Source: Deltaproteobacteria bacterium (GTDB taxonomy: Bacteria > Lernaellota > Lernaellaia > JACKCT01). Taken from it: a stretch of DNA of 64,000 nt. Of this stretch, positions 25,755-59,523 are shown piece by piece. Under the pieces are notes generated by a model. It worked only from the letters and a program-made list of their open reading frames with translations. It ran no database searches and was not told where the DNA came from. The position numbers and the translations under genes were made by a program. Numbering within the stretch: the stretch's first letter is position 1; each line of letters opens with the position of its first letter. Location: assembly GCA_020845895.1 (NCBI GenBank), contig JADLEX010000053.1, forward strand, positions 62,001 to 126,000. The letters are read 5' to 3'.

Positions 25755-27128
25755 TTACATGGGCGGCACGGAACGAACGATCGACGCGTGATATCCGCCG
25801 GTGTCGGGATCGCGCTCGGTCAGATCGAGTTGGCGGTCTTCCAGCACGTCGTTGCCGTCGCGGTCGCGCAGCACCTTGACCGTCGGCCGAAAGACGTCGC
25901 CGCGCGACGCATCGACCACGAGCGCGGTTTCTTCCGTCGTGAGCTGAACGTACGTGCCGGGGGGATACATCCCGAGTGCGACCAGAAAGTGCGCCAGCAT
26001 GCGCGGCTCGAATTCCGCGCCCGCCATCTTGATCATGCGCAGCGGAATCTGCTCCGGATGCGTGTAGACGGAACCATGCATGAGATTGTCGTAGATGCTG
26101 GCCATCGAGATGATCGCCGCCGCGGTGCTCATCGCGCGCTTGTCGGCCAGGTGCGGGAATCCCTCGCCGTTGAACTGGCGATGGTGCTCGAACACCGCGA
26201 TCTCGGCGAGCAGCGGCACGCCGGGAATCGAACGCAGGATGCCGAGCCCGCGGATCGGGTGCTCCACGTAGATCCGATTGTCGTCGGAGATGAGCACCAC
26301 GCCGTCCCTCGTCTTCGGCGGGATATCCATGAGACCGATGTCGTGCAGCAACCCGGCGGTCACGACATCCGGCAGCAACGTCGGGGACACGCCCATGGCC
26401 CGCGACGCAAGGTACGCGATGATCGCGGTGTTGATGCTGTGCGCGAACAGGTCGTCGGTGGCGTGCCGCGTGTGCAGTCGCGACGCCACGGCGAAGGAGT
26501 CGACCTGCATCGCCGCGACGAGCCGGTCGCGCAGCTGATTGAGCAGGTCGAGCGTCGGCGTTCGCCGGGGGTCCACCAACGAAAGGCCGAATGCCTTGAG
26601 CGCCTGCTTGAGCGACGCGTAGATGTCGCGGGCTTCATCGGTATCGGTCGAGACGATCGCTCCGCCCTTGGCGATGTCCACGCGTTGGATGATGAGGTTC
26701 TTGATGCCGACGCCGGCCAGCGCGGTCATCGGGTCGCCGCCCTTGTCCCAGATCTCGTGCGGCGCGAGCACGAGACCGAAGAATGCCACGATCTCCGCCG
26801 GCGTCACGCCTTTGCGCACGGTGAGCGAGTCGATCTGCCGACCCGCGAGCGTCTTGTAGAGCGGCTGCACGTGCGGCATCAGGCGCGAGAGCGGCACGCG
26901 GTCGTACACGAACTCGCCGCCGAGCAGGACGATCGTCCACGATTCGTCGTGTTCAAGGTGGTCGCGCATCTGCGCAATCACCTTCTGGCTGCTCGTCGTG
27001 AGAAGCGGGTGCCCCTCGGGGTAGAGGGTCCTGCTGCGCATCGTGAGCGTCAGAGACTTCAGGATCTCCTCGGTGTGACGAAGTCGCGTCCGCTGGTCCT
27101 GCCCGGTCCCCGTGAGTACCCCGCTCAT
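25755..27128 (-). CDS. HD-GYP-like protein with novel N-terminal module
   Basis: A 457-residue protein. ATG 27128 overlaps the upstream HEAT gene stop (ATGA). Residues 1-150 contain the shared module (LYPEGHPLL near 36-44, VLLGGEFVYDRVPL near 67-80, TPAEIVAFFGLVL near 110-122, VGIKNLII). Residues 190-400 form an HD phosphohydrolase domain. HD is at H262-D263 in LLHDIGLMDIP, then VEHPIRGLGIL and FEHHRQFNGEGFP. The last motif has GFP where canonical HD-GYP proteins have GYP, so cyclic-di-GMP hydrolysis is possible but not certain. The tail (about 400-457) reads VQLTTEETALVVDASRG, the usual small barrel after HD-GYP. Probably a signalling enzyme. Confidence 0.82.
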   Translation of the reverse strand: MSGVLTGTGQDQRTRLRHTEEILKSLTLTMRSRTLYPEGHPLLTTSSQKVIAQMRDHLEHDESWTIVLLGGEFVYDRVPLSRLMPHVQPLYKTLAGRQIDSLTVRKGVTPAEIVAFFGLVLAPHEIWDKGGDPMTALAGVGIKNLIIQRVDIAKGGAIVSTDTDEARDIYASLKQALKAFGLSLVDPRRTPTLDLLNQLRDRLVAAMQVDSFAVASRLHTRHATDDLFAHSINTAIIAYLASRAMGVSPTLLPDVVTAGLLHDIGLMDIPPKTRDGVVLISDDNRIYVEHPIRGLGILRSIPGVPLLAEIAVFEHHRQFNGEGFPHLADKRAMSTAAAIISMASIYDNLMHGSVYTHPEQIPLRMIKMAGAEFEPRMLAHFLVALGMYPPGTYVQLTTEETALVVDASRGDVFRPTVKVLRDRDGNDVLEDRQLDLTERDPDTGGYHASIVRSVPPM

Positions 27129-29377
27129 GGCGTATCCTCTACCGCGTCGTGCCGACGACCGAGACAATCGAGGCAGATCTGCCGGATCGACTTGTTCCAG
27201 CTCTTCGAACCGCGCACGAGCGCCTGCACGGCCTCCGCGCCATCGAACCTCGTCAGGGCGTCGGCGGCGGCGCGCACGACCGTCTCGCTGTGTCGCGACA
27301 GAAGTCCGCCATTGACATAAGACCCGAGCGTGGGAATCGCCACTTTGACGCGGATTCCGCCGAGGGCTTTGATCGCGAGCAACTCGGCCTGCTCGTCGCC
27401 GAAAAACGGCGGCTTCTCCGAGAGCTGTTTCACCAGGAATTCAGCACCCCGGTGCGAGTCTGTGAAGTGCGCCATGGAGAGAATCGCCTGATGGCGGACC
27501 GATGAATCACCATCCCGGACCAGGCGGATGAGGGTTTCAATCGCGGTGCCGTCTTTGGATACCCCGAGCGCGCGGGCGACTTCCTTGCGCACGCGGACTT
27601 CCTGGTGACGAGAGGGTTTGTCGAGGAGTTCCACCATGTCTTCGGGTTTGAGACGCGCGATCACCGCGACCATATTGCGTACGACGTACCAGAGCGGATG
27701 ACCGAGGTATCCCGTCGCCTTTTCCACGCACTTGTCGCCGGCCTCGCCGAGGACGTCGATCAGGATCGCACGCGTCGCCCGGTGGTCCTCGCGGGTGAGC
27801 GCGTCGAAGACGGCGTCCCACGCGGCCGGCCCCATCGCCGTCAGGATCCGCGAAATCGCCGGACTCTCCTCCTTGCCCCACTCGTTGAGAGCACGAACCA
27901 GATCGCCAGTCAGTTCGGGCTTCCGGATGCGCACCAAAACGCCACGCGCCACCCGTTGCGAGAGTTCGTGGTCGTTTTTCTTCGACGCGTGTTTTCTCAG
28001 AAGCCGAATCGCGCGGTCGGCGAGCGCATAGCGACCCGTTTCGATGAGAGTCAGGATCCGCTCGTCCATGCCCAGCGCGTAGAACTCGTAGGCGTCGTTG
28101 CCCCGGGCGAGTTCGAGCAAATCGACAAGGTTGTCGGTCGCCCTCTCCTCCATCACCGGTTCGGCCATCTGGCGCAGGATCTCGGGCATCTCGACGTACA
28201 TGTTTTCGATGTACTCGTAGATCGGCATCTCGCGGGACACCTGATCGCCCTGCGTGCCGGAGATCGTCTCGGCGAGCCGTTTCATCCCCGCGCGATCCTG
28301 GGGGAGCTGCTGGGCGCGGTTCATCTTCTCGGCGAAGCGCGTGTCGTGGCGCAGGTCGAAGTCGGCCACGATGCGCCCGATCTCACCCAGAATCTCGGTC
28401 TCGTTTCGGGCGTTGACGTAATATTGATAGGTCTTCAGGAACTCGGCGTCCGACGAATAGTCGGGGTGCAGCCCCTCGAAGAGCGACTGCGCGATCTGGC
28501 GCGACCGGTAGGCGGCGAGATGCTCGGCGACCGACTGCCCGAAGATCGTGCGGTCCAAGTTCGCGTGATCTTTGTCGAGACGCACCGCGTGTTGCATGAC
28601 GATATAGCGGGTGACCGGGTTGAGGTGGTCGAGCGCGCGCTTCAAATCGTTTTGAAACACCGCCGCAGCCTCCGCGCCCTCGGCCTGCGAACCGGCGGCG
28701 AGCGAACCCATCATCTGAATGAACAGGTCGGCGGTTTTCGACGCCTCCTCGCGGTCCGCGTCGCGGGCGATCGCGCCGTCGAGGATCGAGGCGAGGCGAG
28801 GCGCGTTCTGAATCAGACCGCGCATGAAGTCGAGATCGGCCGCCGAGATCTTCTCGTGCGTCGCGGCGAATCCCTTCGAAAGCCGCCTCCAGACCTCGGC
28901 ATCCGAGAGCGCATCGAGCTTCACCTCGAGGTCGCCATCCGAGATCTTGTAGTCGATTTCGGTGATTTCGACGGAGGTGATCCCCTTGAGCGCGAGGAGC
29001 TTGCGGTATCCACCCGTCTGCCGGGCTTCGAAGGGATCGACATCAAGCGTGTTCAGAAACGACGCGAGCTCCTGCCGCCCCACGCCCTGGTGGAAAATGA
29101 TCTGGCTGACGCTATGCTGGTGCAGCGCGCGCGAAAGCGTCGTCACCGCTTCCTCGCCGACGCGTTCCTCGCCGTCCACATAAAGGCGGTCGTGGCCGAC
29201 GTTGATGACCATGGCCGGTCGCTGGTGGAAGTACTGTTCAAAATAAAGAAGAAGCAGGTCGAGCGCGCGGTCTACCGTGGGATGGCCGCTGGGGTACATG
29301 TTGTGCTTCTTGATGAGGCGGGCGAAGCCGGAAAGGACCAGACTCGTCGGCGAATTGCTGTGGAAACTCTGGACCAT
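27125..29377 (-). CDS. HEAT-repeat protein with the same N-terminal module
   Basis: A 750-residue soluble protein. ATG 29377 lies 5 bases after a GGGGG ribosome site; the in-frame GTG just before it would be too close. Residues 1-145 hold the module seen in the HD protein next door (MYPSGHPTVDRAL, INVGHDRLYVDGE, GVGRQELASFLNTL, LKGITSVEI). The middle (150-480) is mostly helical. From about residue 500, HEAT-like repeats run to the end: LTAMGPAAWDAVFDALTR, VRNMVAVIARLKPEDMVELL, EVRVRKEVARALGVS, SVRHQAILSMAH. Such repeats form a protein-binding solenoid. It is translationally coupled to the HD protein, suggesting a joint complex. No enzymatic motif is seen. Confidence 0.78.
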   Translation of the reverse strand: MVQSFHSNSPTSLVLSGFARLIKKHNMYPSGHPTVDRALDLLLLYFEQYFHQRPAMVINVGHDRLYVDGEERVGEEAVTTLSRALHQHSVSQIIFHQGVGRQELASFLNTLDVDPFEARQTGGYRKLLALKGITSVEITEIDYKISDGDLEVKLDALSDAEVWRRLSKGFAATHEKISAADLDFMRGLIQNAPRLASILDGAIARDADREEASKTADLFIQMMGSLAAGSQAEGAEAAAVFQNDLKRALDHLNPVTRYIVMQHAVRLDKDHANLDRTIFGQSVAEHLAAYRSRQIAQSLFEGLHPDYSSDAEFLKTYQYYVNARNETEILGEIGRIVADFDLRHDTRFAEKMNRAQQLPQDRAGMKRLAETISGTQGDQVSREMPIYEYIENMYVEMPEILRQMAEPVMEERATDNLVDLLELARGNDAYEFYALGMDERILTLIETGRYALADRAIRLLRKHASKKNDHELSQRVARGVLVRIRKPELTGDLVRALNEWGKEESPAISRILTAMGPAAWDAVFDALTREDHRATRAILIDVLGEAGDKCVEKATGYLGHPLWYVVRNMVAVIARLKPEDMVELLDKPSRHQEVRVRKEVARALGVSKDGTAIETLIRLVRDGDSSVRHQAILSMAHFTDSHRGAEFLVKQLSEKPPFFGDEQAELLAIKALGGIRVKVAIPTLGSYVNGGLLSRHSETVVRAAADALTRFDGAEAVQALVRGSKSWNKSIRQICLDCLGRRHDAVEDTP

Positions 29378-51544: not shown

Positions 51545-52546
51545 ATGAGTGTTTGCTCGAAGGTCACCGGCGTCGGGTTTTTTGTGCCCGACCGAGTAGT
51601 CACGAACGACGACTTGTCGGCGTTGATCGACACCAGCGACGAGTGGATCCATCAGCGCACGGGCATCAGAGCGCGCCGCCATGCGCCGGACGGCATGACG
51701 AACGTCGACATGGCCGAGATCGCCGCGAAGCACGCGATGGACGAGGCGGGTATCGGCCCGGGCGACATCGACCTGCTGATCGCGGCGACGCTTTCGCCCG
51801 ACTACTCGTTTCCCAGCAACGCACCGTTCATCCAGCGGCGGCTCGGCCTCGGGCCGGTGGCGGCCATCGACGTGCGCAACCAGTGCACCGGATTCCTCTA
51901 CAGCATCGCGGTCGCCGATGCGTACATCCGAACCGGACGGGCACGCCGAGTGCTCGTGATCGGCTCGGAGGTCCAGAGCGGCGGCCTCGACTTCGACTCG
52001 CGATCGCGCGACATCGCGGTCATCTTCGGCGACGGCGCGGGCGCGTTCGTGATGGAGGCGGGCGATTCGTCCGATGGCAAGGGCGTACTGGCGGTGGCGC
52101 TGCACGGCGACGGCACGCACGCCGAAGACCTTTGGACGGATGCCGAACGCAGCTACGAGCATCCGCGCCTCACGATGGAGATGTACGAGTCGGGCGCGGT
52201 GTGGCCGAAGATGCGCGGACGCGCCGTGTTCATCCAGGCGGTCAAGGAACTGCCCGAGATCATCAACGAGGTGCTCGCGAAGACCGGCCACGCGCTCGAC
52301 GACGTGGACTGCTTTGCGTTTCATCAGGCGAATCTGCGCATCAACCAGTGGGTCGGCTCGTCGATGAACATTCCCGACGAGAAGATCTTCAACAACATCG
52401 AGCGTTACGGAAACACCACGGCCGCGACGATTCCCGGCGTGATTTTCGAGGCCCGCGCTTCCGGCCTGATCCACGACGGGTCGCTGGTCGTCGCGGCGGC
52501 GTTCGGCGCGGGGTTCACCTCCGCGGCCATTACGATTCGATTCTGA
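51545..52546 (+). CDS. fabH: Beta-ketoacyl-ACP synthase III
   Basis: A 333-residue thiolase-fold enzyme that condenses acetyl-CoA with malonyl-ACP to start fatty-acid synthesis. The complete Cys-His-Asn triad is present: C114 in RNQCTGFLY, H260 in AFHQANLRIN and N290 in ERYGNTTAATIP. GDGAGAFVM and the closing AAFGAGFTSAAITIRF fit FabH. It lies 9 bp after galT and 12 bp before a degenerate paralogue. Because it sits at the end of a sugar operon instead of the usual plsX-fabH-fabD cluster, it may be a secondary copy for a special acyl chain (inference). Confidence 0.9.
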   Translation: MSVCSKVTGVGFFVPDRVVTNDDLSALIDTSDEWIHQRTGIRARRHAPDGMTNVDMAEIAAKHAMDEAGIGPGDIDLLIAATLSPDYSFPSNAPFIQRRLGLGPVAAIDVRNQCTGFLYSIAVADAYIRTGRARRVLVIGSEVQSGGLDFDSRSRDIAVIFGDGAGAFVMEAGDSSDGKGVLAVALHGDGTHAEDLWTDAERSYEHPRLTMEMYESGAVWPKMRGRAVFIQAVKELPEIINEVLAKTGHALDDVDCFAFHQANLRINQWVGSSMNIPDEKIFNNIERYGNTTAATIPGVIFEARASGLIHDGSLVVAAAFGAGFTSAAITIRF

Positions 52547-52558
52547 TCGGGGCACAAA

Positions 52559-53548
52559 ATGGGCGTGAAGATTCTTTCCGTGGCGAGCGCGTTGCCGCGG
52601 CGTCGCGTGGACAATTCCGAACTCGCGACAACCCTTGGGATCGGCGAGGCGGCCCTCGCATCGCGCGTCGGCACCACGGAGCGGCGCTACGTCGGCGGAG
52701 AAGAGACCGGCGCGAAGCTCCTGGCGTCCGCGTCCGATGACGCGCTCGCTCAGGCGGGACGCACGCGTGAGCAGGTCCGCGCGATCGTGGCCTCGACCGT
52801 CACGCCAGACCACCAGTTTCCGGGCAACGCCGCGTTCCTGCAGAAGGAGTGGGCGCTGCCCGGCGCGGCGATCCTCGATGCGCGCGCGTGCGATGGCGGC
52901 TTCCTGCACTCGCTCGATGTCGCGCGGACCTTCATCGACGCGGGCACCTTCGATCTCGTCCTGCTCGCGGCGTGCGACCTGTTCTCGACCTACCTGCGGC
53001 ACGAGCCCGAGGGTGCGTCCGTCACGCCGTGGTTCGGCGACGGCGCGGCCGCGTGCGTGCTGGCGCCTTGCGACGACGACTCCGGAATCCTCGCGCTGGA
53101 GGTCGGGAACGATCCCGCGCACGTCGAGGCGTTTTGGGCGAAGGATCCCGGGACATACGTGCGCCCGCGCATGACGCGCGAAACCATCGAAAAGGGTCTG
53201 TGGCATTTCACCATCGACATGGATGCGATGGCGCGCGAGACCGCCCGCCTGATGCCCGCTATTTGCCGCCGCGCCTTGGAAAAAGCCGGGGTGGGAGCGA
53301 GCGACGTGTCGATCTTTATCGGGTCCGCGATCCTGCCCGAGTGGGGCGCGGCGGTCGCCGACGAACTCGGCATCCCGCGCGAGCGCGTCCCCGCCACGCA
53401 CGACAGCATCGGCTATTGCGGAACGGCGCTCCTGCCGATCAACATCGAGCGCGCGCTCCGGTCCGGACGGGTGAAGAGCGGCGACGTGATCCTCGCCGCG
53501 TCGGTCGGCGCGGGGATCGCGTTCGGGGCGATGGTCTATCGCGTGTGA
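52559..53548 (+). CDS. KAS III-like protein with incomplete catalytic triad
   Basis: A 329-residue thiolase-fold paralogue of the preceding fabH. The nucleophilic cysteine is kept (C111 in DARACDGGFLHS). By alignment with the neighbour, the His is replaced by Ser (S256 in IFIGSAILPEW) and the Asn by Tyr (Y286 in DSIGYCGTALLP). GDGAAACVLAP and the end AASVGAGIAFGAMVYRV keep the fold. Without the His/Asn pair, decarboxylative condensation is unlikely; acyl transfer through Cys111, or a partner role to the active FabH, is possible. Start ATG 52559 has only a weak G-rich site, consistent with coupling to fabH. Confidence 0.85.
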   Translation: MGVKILSVASALPRRRVDNSELATTLGIGEAALASRVGTTERRYVGGEETGAKLLASASDDALAQAGRTREQVRAIVASTVTPDHQFPGNAAFLQKEWALPGAAILDARACDGGFLHSLDVARTFIDAGTFDLVLLAACDLFSTYLRHEPEGASVTPWFGDGAAACVLAPCDDDSGILALEVGNDPAHVEAFWAKDPGTYVRPRMTRETIEKGLWHFTIDMDAMARETARLMPAICRRALEKAGVGASDVSIFIGSAILPEWGAAVADELGIPRERVPATHDSIGYCGTALLPINIERALRSGRVKSGDVILAASVGAGIAFGAMVYRV

Positions 53549-57448: not shown

Positions 57449-58348
57449 ATGACCGGCGCGCACGTCGACACGCGTTCGCTTCAGGAAAACGTCCTGTTCG
57501 GTCCCGTTACCGAATACGAGGTCGTGCGGTTCCTGGAGTCCCTGCTCGATCTGTGCGGCAAGATCGAGCGGTACCCCATTTCGAGCAAGATTGTTCAGGA
57601 AGGCGGCGCGCAGGCCGCCGCGTCGCTCGCGCGTCTTTGGGAAAAACCCGGCGACGACGCGACAATTTCCGAACTCTACAATCAGTTGCAGGTCAACGAC
57701 ATTCCACTGTCGAACGCCGCGCAAACGCATCCCACGGTCAGCGCGTTTCTGTATTTCATGCTCGAAAACAACGTTCGCGCCGTCACCTTTCACGCAAACG
57801 CGAAGGACGAAGACCTCGTTCGGTTCTTCTCGGCTCTGGTCAATGCCACGGCGGGCAGGGACCTCGACGACGAACTGCGGGGCCTGGGACTCGCATCGAT
57901 CGACTACTTGCCGCAGGTCACCATCCCAGCTCCGCCGGAGAACGCGCCGCGTGTATCGTTCGCCCGCACGGACGGGTTCTTCACGGATACGGGCGAGGAT
58001 TCCGAGGACGACGTGGCCTGGGAGGACGTTCCCGTGGAGCGCAACGCCCCCGAGGAGCCGGCCGAACCGGCAACCGAGGCGGCGAGTGACGCACCGGGAA
58101 AGCGAATCCACGTCCGCGTCGTCGTCGGCACACATCCGCTCTTCGGGGCGACGGTCACCGTCGTCGATCATCTCCACCCCACGGTCGTTTTCGACGCCGA
58201 GCCGGGCGCCACACTCCAACTCATTCCGGGCGACTACGCGCTCGAAGTGCGCTACGAGGCGTACCGCGTCATGCATCCGCTGAAGGTCGGTTACGACGAC
58301 GACGTCCGCAACATCGACGTCGATCTCCAGCGCGTTTTCGATTACTGA
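57449..58348 (+). CDS. Shared-module protein with acidic linker and PEGA-like domain
   Basis: A 299-residue protein without a known function. Residues 18-160 match the module found in the HEAT and HD proteins: IERYPISSKIVQEG, LQVNDIPLS, VRAVTFHANAKDEDLVRFFS and LGLASIDYLP. Residues 170-215 form a Pro/Glu/Asp-rich linker. Residues 220-299 look like a PEGA/carboxypeptidase-regulatory-like beta-sandwich (HPLFGATVTVVDH, IPGDYALEVRYEAYR). There is no signal peptide, so the protein is probably cytosolic or recruited by partners. It overlaps the amidase start by one base (TGATG), so both are made together, hinting at a role in division or wall remodelling. Confidence 0.72.
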   Translation: MTGAHVDTRSLQENVLFGPVTEYEVVRFLESLLDLCGKIERYPISSKIVQEGGAQAAASLARLWEKPGDDATISELYNQLQVNDIPLSNAAQTHPTVSAFLYFMLENNVRAVTFHANAKDEDLVRFFSALVNATAGRDLDDELRGLGLASIDYLPQVTIPAPPENAPRVSFARTDGFFTDTGEDSEDDVAWEDVPVERNAPEEPAEPATEAASDAPGKRIHVRVVVGTHPLFGATVTVVDHLHPTVVFDAEPGATLQLIPGDYALEVRYEAYRVMHPLKVGYDDDVRNIDVDLQRVFDY

Positions 58349-59523
58349 TGCCCTCGCCCGTCCGAAGCCGTTCGATCGCCCGCGTCGCTTGCGTTTGTGT
58401 TGTTCTCTTCGCGGCGACCGCCGCATACGCCGACGCGACGCTCGTCGTGATCGGCGGCGAATCCACAACGCTGCGCCGCGTTTACGAGCAGGACGGCGAG
58501 ATCTGGATCGGTGCGCGCGAGCTGCTGGAGGCGCTGGGGTTTCAGGTCACGTGGAACGCGTCGAGCGAGAAGTTGATCGGCCACGGGAACGATCGAAGCG
58601 TGCTCCTGACGCCCGGAATCGAACACGTCGTCGCCGGGGCGAAGACGCGCCGCCTCGCGCACGCGCCGCGCTTCGTGGGCGGGGAACTGTGTGTCCCGGT
58701 CGAATTCGTCGAGCGCGCCCTGCCCCAGATCCTGGGCACGCAGGCTCACCTCGAAGCCGTACACCCGTCGCCGATCGCCGTGGCCCCGACCTTCGCCGCG
58801 ACGGTGTCCGTTCTGAAAAAGATCGTCGTGGACGCCGGGCACGGCGGGCACGACGCCGGCGCGACATCGCCCGAGGGCATCAAGGAAAAGGACATCAACC
58901 TCGGTGTCGCGCTCAAGCGGCGCGAGCTGCTCGAACGCAACACGCAGATCGACGTGGTCCTGACGCGCGACGGCGACTACTTCATTCCGCTGGCCGGGCG
59001 CACGCAGATCGGCAATCGGTCCGAGGCCGACCTGTTCCTGTCGATTCATTCGAACGGATCGGTCAATCGCGCGGCGACCGGCCTGGAAACGTATTTTCTC
59101 GCCTATGAGGCGACCGACCGGCAGGCGGCGCGGCTGGCCGCCGAGGAAAACCGCGTCGTTTCGCTGGAGGAGAATTCGCCGTTTGCCGCGTTCACCGAGG
59201 GCGACGATCTGGCAGCCATGCTGCGCGACATGGTGAACGCCGACAACATGCGCGCATCGGAGCACTTGGCGGCCGCGGTGCAGCGGCGCATCGTGGAGTA
59301 CATGCACCTACCCAACCGGGGAGTGAAACAGGCGCCGTTTTTCGTGCTGGTGGGATCGAAGAATCCGGCGATTCTCGTCGAGGTCGGTTTCGCCAGCAAT
59401 CCGGTCGAGGCGCGGCGACTGGCCGAGGAACAGACGCAGTGGGTGCTCGCCGAGGCGCTGTTTCAAGCGATCATGTATTATGACGAAACGCTCGCCGAAT
59501 CACGCGCGGGCGAGCGGCCCTGA
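58348..59523 (+). CDS. N-acetylmuramoyl-L-alanine amidase
   Basis: A 391-residue zinc amidase of the AmiA/B/C type. Residues 1-30 are a signal peptide ending near TAAYA. Residues 31-145 resemble a copper-amine-oxidase N-terminal domain (IWIGARELLEALGFQVTW), a common wall-binding part. Residues 155-375 are Amidase_3: VVDAGHGGHDAG gives the first zinc His near 162, KEKDINL the Glu, LFLSIHSNG the second His, and VEVGFASNP the catalytic Glu. It cleaves the stem peptide from muramic acid in the periplasm during cell separation. The 3' end overlaps the convergent brkB gene by 24 bp. Confidence 0.92.
   Translation: MPSPVRSRSIARVACVCVVLFAATAAYADATLVVIGGESTTLRRVYEQDGEIWIGARELLEALGFQVTWNASSEKLIGHGNDRSVLLTPGIEHVVAGAKTRRLAHAPRFVGGELCVPVEFVERALPQILGTQAHLEAVHPSPIAVAPTFAATVSVLKKIVVDAGHGGHDAGATSPEGIKEKDINLGVALKRRELLERNTQIDVVLTRDGDYFIPLAGRTQIGNRSEADLFLSIHSNGSVNRAATGLETYFLAYEATDRQAARLAAEENRVVSLEENSPFAAFTEGDDLAAMLRDMVNADNMRASEHLAAAVQRRIVEYMHLPNRGVKQAPFFVLVGSKNPAILVEVGFASNPVEARRLAEEQTQWVLAEALFQAIMYYDETLAESRAGERP

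Follow-up and report, generated by a model that had tools for sequence, protein, structure and literature searches.

Genes at the Locus

The original prediction singled out three genes in the 64,000-nucleotide stretch of DNA analyzed here (the window), and all three open reading frames (ORFs) are present. The smallest, on the plus strand at 57449..58348, codes for a 299-amino-acid protein (the 57449 protein) with an N-terminal module, a linker predicted with low confidence, and a small beta domain at the C-terminus whose last residues are IDVDLQRVFDY. The module spans residues about 16–159 (57494..57925, plus strand; E 2.9e-28 with the hidden Markov model [HMM] built from the full set, and AlphaFold2), and the beta domain, which is common to this protein and its module-HEAT-tail paralogues, spans residues about 219–299 (58103..58345, plus strand). 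The next gene downstream (58348..59523, plus strand) overlaps it by one base (TGATG) and resembles N-acetylmuramoyl-L-alanine amidases; its product has a signal-like N-terminus and is without the module.

The other two genes form a pair on the minus strand. Gene 1 (27125..29377) codes for a HEAT-repeat protein of 750 amino acids, with the module at residues about 3–145 (28943..29371, minus strand; BLASTP and HMM) and a HEAT-repeat region recognized by Pfam and NCBIfam at residues about 477–721 (27215..27949, minus strand). The Pfam family HEAT_2 matches this protein in three stretches (E 2.4e-20, 73 bits against a cut-off of 27.7). Gene 2 (25755..27128) codes for an HD-GYP-like protein of 457 amino acids. 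Its module lies at residues about 10–154 (26667..27101, minus strand; BLASTP and HMM, AlphaFold2 pLDDT 87.2, pTM 0.81), and its HD domain (26016..26447, minus strand) matches the Pfam families HD_5 (E 9.3e-15, 55.2 bits, cut-off 27.2) and HD (37.6 bits, cut-off 22). The stop codon of the HEAT gene and the start codon of the HD gene overlap in an ATGA at 27125..27128 (minus strand). No Pfam or NCBIfam family covers the N-terminus of any of the three proteins. Elsewhere in the window, two FabH-like (ketoacyl-ACP synthase III) genes lie in tandem on the plus strand at 51545–53548.

One Domain in Three Architectures

The three N-termini had been aligned by eye and proposed to be the same domain, and profiles confirm this, with HMM boundaries that match the residues first proposed. 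The motifs named at the time align with one another: YPSGHP, YPEGHP and YPISS; YVDG, VYDRVPL and VNDIPL; ELASFL, EIVAFF and DLVRFF; and GITS, GIKN and GLAS. Only a tyrosine and two prolines are near-invariant across the module. By direct BLASTP, the HEAT and HD proteins share 21% identity over 168 amino acids (E = 9e-4). The 57449 protein has no pairwise BLASTP match to either, and a profile of four sequences (the window HEAT and HD proteins and one ortholog of each) does not find it; the relationship of the HEAT/HD modules to the 57449 module therefore needs intermediates. Single-sequence HMMs from the three seeds do reach common intermediates, among them L008, L011, L012 and L016, which the HEAT seed and the 57449 seed each match. 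Relatives were gathered from other genomes with each protein, and iteration of the HMM converged on 46 sequences; one profile matches all three N-termini rather than just one.

Because iterative convergence can feed on itself, a group-out test was made, in which an HMM of 18 HEAT/HD-type modules, with zero 57449-like sequences, was searched among 1470 ORFs. This HMM recovers the 57449 protein at E = 3.5e-7 (29.4 bits, where the best of 2000 shuffles scored 9.0), along with four of its relatives at E 2.8e-9 to 5.4e-6. With intermediate module-HEAT paralogues added to the HMM, the 57449 protein rises to E 8e-16 (57.7 bits, shuffles 8.8). An hhalign comparison of the HEAT/HD-type group with the 57449 group gives a probability of 97.6 and E 4e-12. 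One could argue from the failed pairwise and four-sequence searches that the 57449 similarity arose by chance or convergence and that the module belongs to the HEAT/HD pair only, but the group-out and hhalign scores, together with single-ORF intermediates in which HEAT repeats are flanked by counterparts of the two ends of the 57449 protein, make this highly improbable. On the evidence of sequence comparison, the N-module is best described as one homologous domain of about 145 residues found in three architectures.

Predicted Structure and the Search for a Named Family

AlphaFold2 was run on the HD copy and the 57449 protein, with alignments made of the window proteins and 70 rows from the loci. 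In the HD copy, the predicted helices (H) and strands (E) are H9-35, H41-60, E63-69, E72-75, H85-96, E99-105, H110-121, H124-129, H133-139 and E145-151; in the 57449 protein, they are H22-41, H47-61, E71-76, E79-82, H95-106, E109-114, H120-131, H139-146 and E151-155. The structural comparison covered the HD and 57449 copies, in which the predicted helices and strands follow one order. The agreement is one of element order and is not independent of the alignment, as the two runs share homologous rows. For the 57449 protein, block means of pLDDT are mostly above 85 in residues 21–160 and fall under 60 across most of the linker and tail. The module is predicted to pack a small alpha/beta part against a long helical hairpin whose turn holds Y-P-x-x-H-P.

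The original prediction knew of no named family for the module, and searches of Pfam, NCBIfam, and the sequences and folds of the Protein Data Bank (PDB) agree. Among 41 module members, only scattered single matches were seen in Pfam (E at least 0.024) and NCBIfam (E at least 0.01), with no recurring family. The best hit of the PDB profile search (E 0.0032) was a designed cytochrome c555 trimer, no stretch of which passes alone, so that no credible relative emerged. The PDB fold search gave nothing significant (for the HD copy, E 0.87 or worse), nor did a viral fold search. Entries containing GAF domains (PDE6, PelD, PDE2A, NLH2 and phytochromes) do recur among the top PDB fold matches of the HD copy; for the 57449 model, the top matches include PelD and a sigma-54 regulator domain. 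These GAF matches reach E 0.27 or worse, a probability of at most about 0.14 and TM-scores of about 0.1–0.2. The module is like a GAF domain in these weak matches and in its N-terminal place, which GAF domains also occupy in enzymes like PmGH, but unlike one in having no Pfam match and no significant sequence or fold match. The GAF resemblance was kept as a hint only and does not count as evidence of membership.

Spread and the HEAT/HD Gene Pair

In a profile search, 83 of 290 sampled bacterial genomes, about a quarter, carry the module, 7 of the 83 being in the window's own class; the window's genome has five copies. In this wide sample, many modules belong to HEAT proteins for which no HD partner was found close by. 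Among the matches listed, 43 pairs of same-strand module neighbors are separated by less than 4 kb, spread over 38 of 75 genomes, and one of the 43 is two modules in one ORF.

A query of four HD proteins found 80 named loci, a sample biased to similar HD proteins and mostly from Geobacteraceae. They come from Geobacteraceae and other Desulfuromonadales, Candidatus Dadabacteria, Elusimicrobia, Planctomycetota and unclassified metagenome-assembled genomes. Two module-bearing ORFs are adjacent on the same strand in 72 of these loci, and in 69 of the 72 the first stop lies between −22 and about +80 bases from the start of the second module. With this HD-type query, the upstream ORFs tested carry HEAT_2 repeats, and the downstream one carries HD_5/HD. 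In loci of the Geobacteraceae type, a RadA-like gene lies upstream of the pair and another HEAT gene lies downstream in convergent orientation; considered as further conserved neighbors, both were set aside as the gene order of the lineage.

In a tree of 75 modules, one branch (SH-aLRT 91, not starred) has all 30 HEAT rows on the same side, and a tree constrained to unite the 30 HD copies has a higher likelihood than the unconstrained quick tree (p-AU 0.739), though the tree rests on 145 columns and many of its forks are open. The HEAT and HD copies appear to be two old clades. This split, together with the pairing, fits a single old duplication after which the two products remained neighbors and partners. 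The window HEAT protein resembles known HEAT-repeat scaffolds (HEAT_2 and PBS-lyase HEAT-like) in having HEAT_2 repeats above the Pfam cut-off. It differs from them in that it has no lyase partner, has its own N-terminal module, and is partnered by an HD gene.

The HD Domain and Its Active Site

The enzyme PmGH has a regulatory GAF domain N-terminal to an HD-GYP domain (PMC4159591). Its metal binders are H189, H221, D222, H250, H276 and H277, with E185 also a metal ligand, and alanine substitutions at D183 or K225 abolish its activity (PMC4159591). The HD proteins with the module resemble PmGH in having an HD_5/HD-type catalytic domain with the H, HD, H, HH and GYP/GFP elements behind an N-terminal domain. 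They differ in that the N-terminal domain matches no Pfam family, that the adjacent HEAT gene carries the same domain, and that most have a tyrosine at the E185 position (86 of 89 HD rows; the window copy has an aspartate). With tyrosine there, a full trinuclear center is doubtful.

The metal-binding histidines and the aspartate of the HD motif are kept in the window copy (H230, H262-D263, H290 and H315-H316) and in at least 87 of the 89 rows. The window copy has four further changes, with T224, L266, F324 and S344 in place of the equivalents of D183, K225, Y285 and D305. Its ortholog in genome G003 shares the leucine, phenylalanine and serine at K225, Y285 and D305. Across the wider HD family, 87 of 89 rows retain D183 and K225 and 85 of 89 retain D305, and Y285 is mostly retained as well. 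The signature HHExxDGxGYP is absent from the window copy, which reads HHRQFNGEGFP, lacking the E of HHE; GYP is found in 87 of 89 rows, with GFP in the window. The label "HD-GYP-like" therefore holds for the HD match and the histidines but not for the active-site residues of the window copy. Since the D183 and K225 equivalents, where alanine kills PmGH, are both changed, the window HD protein may be inactive as an enzyme and may be a binding or scaffold version. In another pair, specific to the class (G001:C150 and G002:C8), the HD motif has become YD, and a glutamate stands at the D305 position.

Other Architectures and the Origin of the 57449 Protein

Three fusions of the module had been claimed: to HEAT repeats, to an HD domain and to a "PEGA-like" domain. 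The HEAT and HD partners stand, whereas the identity of the third is uncertain. Like CarboxypepD_reg, PEGA and transthyretin-like domains, the 57449 tail appears to be small and all-beta, in a region of low AlphaFold2 confidence, and it matches them weakly. It stays below the curated cut-offs (CarboxypepD_reg at 16.8 bits, cut-off 32.3; PEGA matches just one of seven relatives, at E 0.003) and has a conserved end of its own, D-L-Q-x-[IV]-F.

Proteins of three further kinds occur in the window's class: module-HEAT, about 240 residues followed by module-HEAT, and module-HEAT-tail, none with HD fused. The tail of the last kind is homologous to the 57449 C-terminus, an alignment of seven tails shows an invariant DLQ..F end, and in the tree the 57449 module nests with the module-HEAT-tail type (97*). 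An 844-amino-acid protein of this type (G001:C131) matches residues 24–151 and 209–299 of the 57449 protein on either side of its HEAT repeats. Because both ends are matched in this way, the 57449 protein is read as a shortened module-HEAT-tail protein, or else the ancestral unextended form. In genome G002 (C23; L200:4215-5073), a 57449-type gene is split over two frames, with an ORF of 237 amino acids and the tail elsewhere, which is either an assembly error or a broken gene.

In two genomes of other families, single ORFs join GGDEF, AAA, module and HEAT (L211:1147-5877 in G179:C156 and L212:1325-4951 in G009:C22), and these tie the module-HEAT unit to diguanylate cyclase signaling in cis. 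Proteins of about 360 amino acids in L218, L226 and L227 (G119, G256 and G258) consist of the N-module and a C-terminal part; those of L218 and L227 have no Pfam match. A HEAT protein with two N-modules in tandem (residues 12–157 and 155–301; L224:1937-4048 in G219:C3) is followed by a module-bearing gene of 470 amino acids.

The Amidase Neighbor

The module had also been proposed to link the HD enzyme and the HEAT scaffold to a wall amidase. This part of the proposal is not supported, as the amidase merely adjoins the 57449 gene. A 57449-type gene also precedes the amidase in four further genomes of the class (G002, G004, G005 and G006), and in G004 and G005 a gene that by eye resembles asparaginases or isoaspartyl peptidases stands between the two (L207:2656-3537 and L210:3295-4218). 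By eye, the amidase has a signal peptide at its start, whereas none is seen in the 57449 protein, so the two should be in different compartments. A physical joining of the amidase to the module system was rejected on the same grounds, as the amidase looks exported and the module proteins look cytosolic. The link between the 57449 gene and the amidase is one of gene order.

What the Module May Do

The main setting of the module is an old two-gene unit that pairs a HEAT scaffold with an HD-GYP-like metal phosphohydrolase, both of which begin with a diverged copy. Since the module recurs on both partners of a conserved HEAT/HD gene pair, a role in dimerization or as a sensor is plausible. In the reading set out here, the HEAT and HD copies would bind each other through the N-termini, tethering the HD enzyme to a cytosolic HEAT scaffold, and the HEAT part would bring in a target or a further regulator. 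The pair would then act in signaling by a nucleotide second messenger, cyclic dinucleotide or other. The GGDEF-AAA-module-HEAT ORFs and the HD-GYP features of most HD copies point to cyclic dinucleotides, and the one HEAT protein with two modules in a row was counted in favor of assembly. In the window's lineage, the unit would have been duplicated into scaffold-only proteins (module-HEAT, middle-module-HEAT and module-HEAT-tail); the 57449 protein would be such a scaffold minus its HEAT part, perhaps a small adaptor joining the same interactions. For hetero-assembly of the two modules in cytosolic second-messenger signaling, we consider the chances evenly balanced.

Adjacency and parallel descent also fit two proteins that sense one ligand without contact. 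The module could be a ligand sensor, a small input domain like GAF or PAS, which controls the HD domain in cis and the HEAT protein separately, the pairing reflecting a common signal. Its position N-terminal to HD, like that of GAF in PmGH (PMC4159591), and the recurrence of GAF entries and PelD among the fold matches suggest as much; yet those matches are far from significant, and the module has no invariant polar pocket, with YPxxHP placed in the turn of a helical hairpin. A sensor with a shared ligand is a serious rival, if a rather unlikely one. The module could instead be a structural cap or adaptor that starts HEAT solenoids, the copy in the HD protein docking on its partner's solenoid rather than on the module. 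Most fusion partners are indeed HEAT repeats, and the first two elements form a long helical hairpin. This explanation seems improbable, however, as the Pfam-recognized repeats of the window HEAT protein start hundreds of residues past the module, and the module also occurs without HEAT, in the 57449 protein, the HD proteins and the 360-amino-acid proteins without a Pfam match.

Significance

Taken with hetero-assembly, the wider picture would be an undescribed signaling system spanning several phyla, in which a HEAT scaffold and an HD-GYP-like enzyme are assembled via a new paralogous domain, sometimes with a diguanylate cyclase and an AAA ATPase, and with scaffold-only or adaptor offshoots such as the 57449 protein. 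This picture is offered tentatively, as something possible but a little short of probable. Neither the domain nor the pair has a name in the family libraries and literature searched; the attached HD-GYP-like and HEAT proteins are of known kinds. The libraries searched see the pair merely as HEAT-repeat and HD-domain proteins, and the literature searched on HEAT repeats with HD-GYP, on Geobacter and on related subjects had nothing on a HEAT/HD module pair. The lack of a name, the wide spread and the usual place at the start of neighboring HEAT and HD genes suggest an old, unstudied signaling pair. Naming the module would set these HD proteins apart from the usual HD-GYP enzymes, which are often taken to be active. 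It would also flag a two-gene unit that recurs and is open to experiment in cultured Geobacteraceae and their relatives, where the carriers include Geomobilimonas luticola, Geotalea toluenoxydans, Oryzomonas japonica and Malonomonas rubra.
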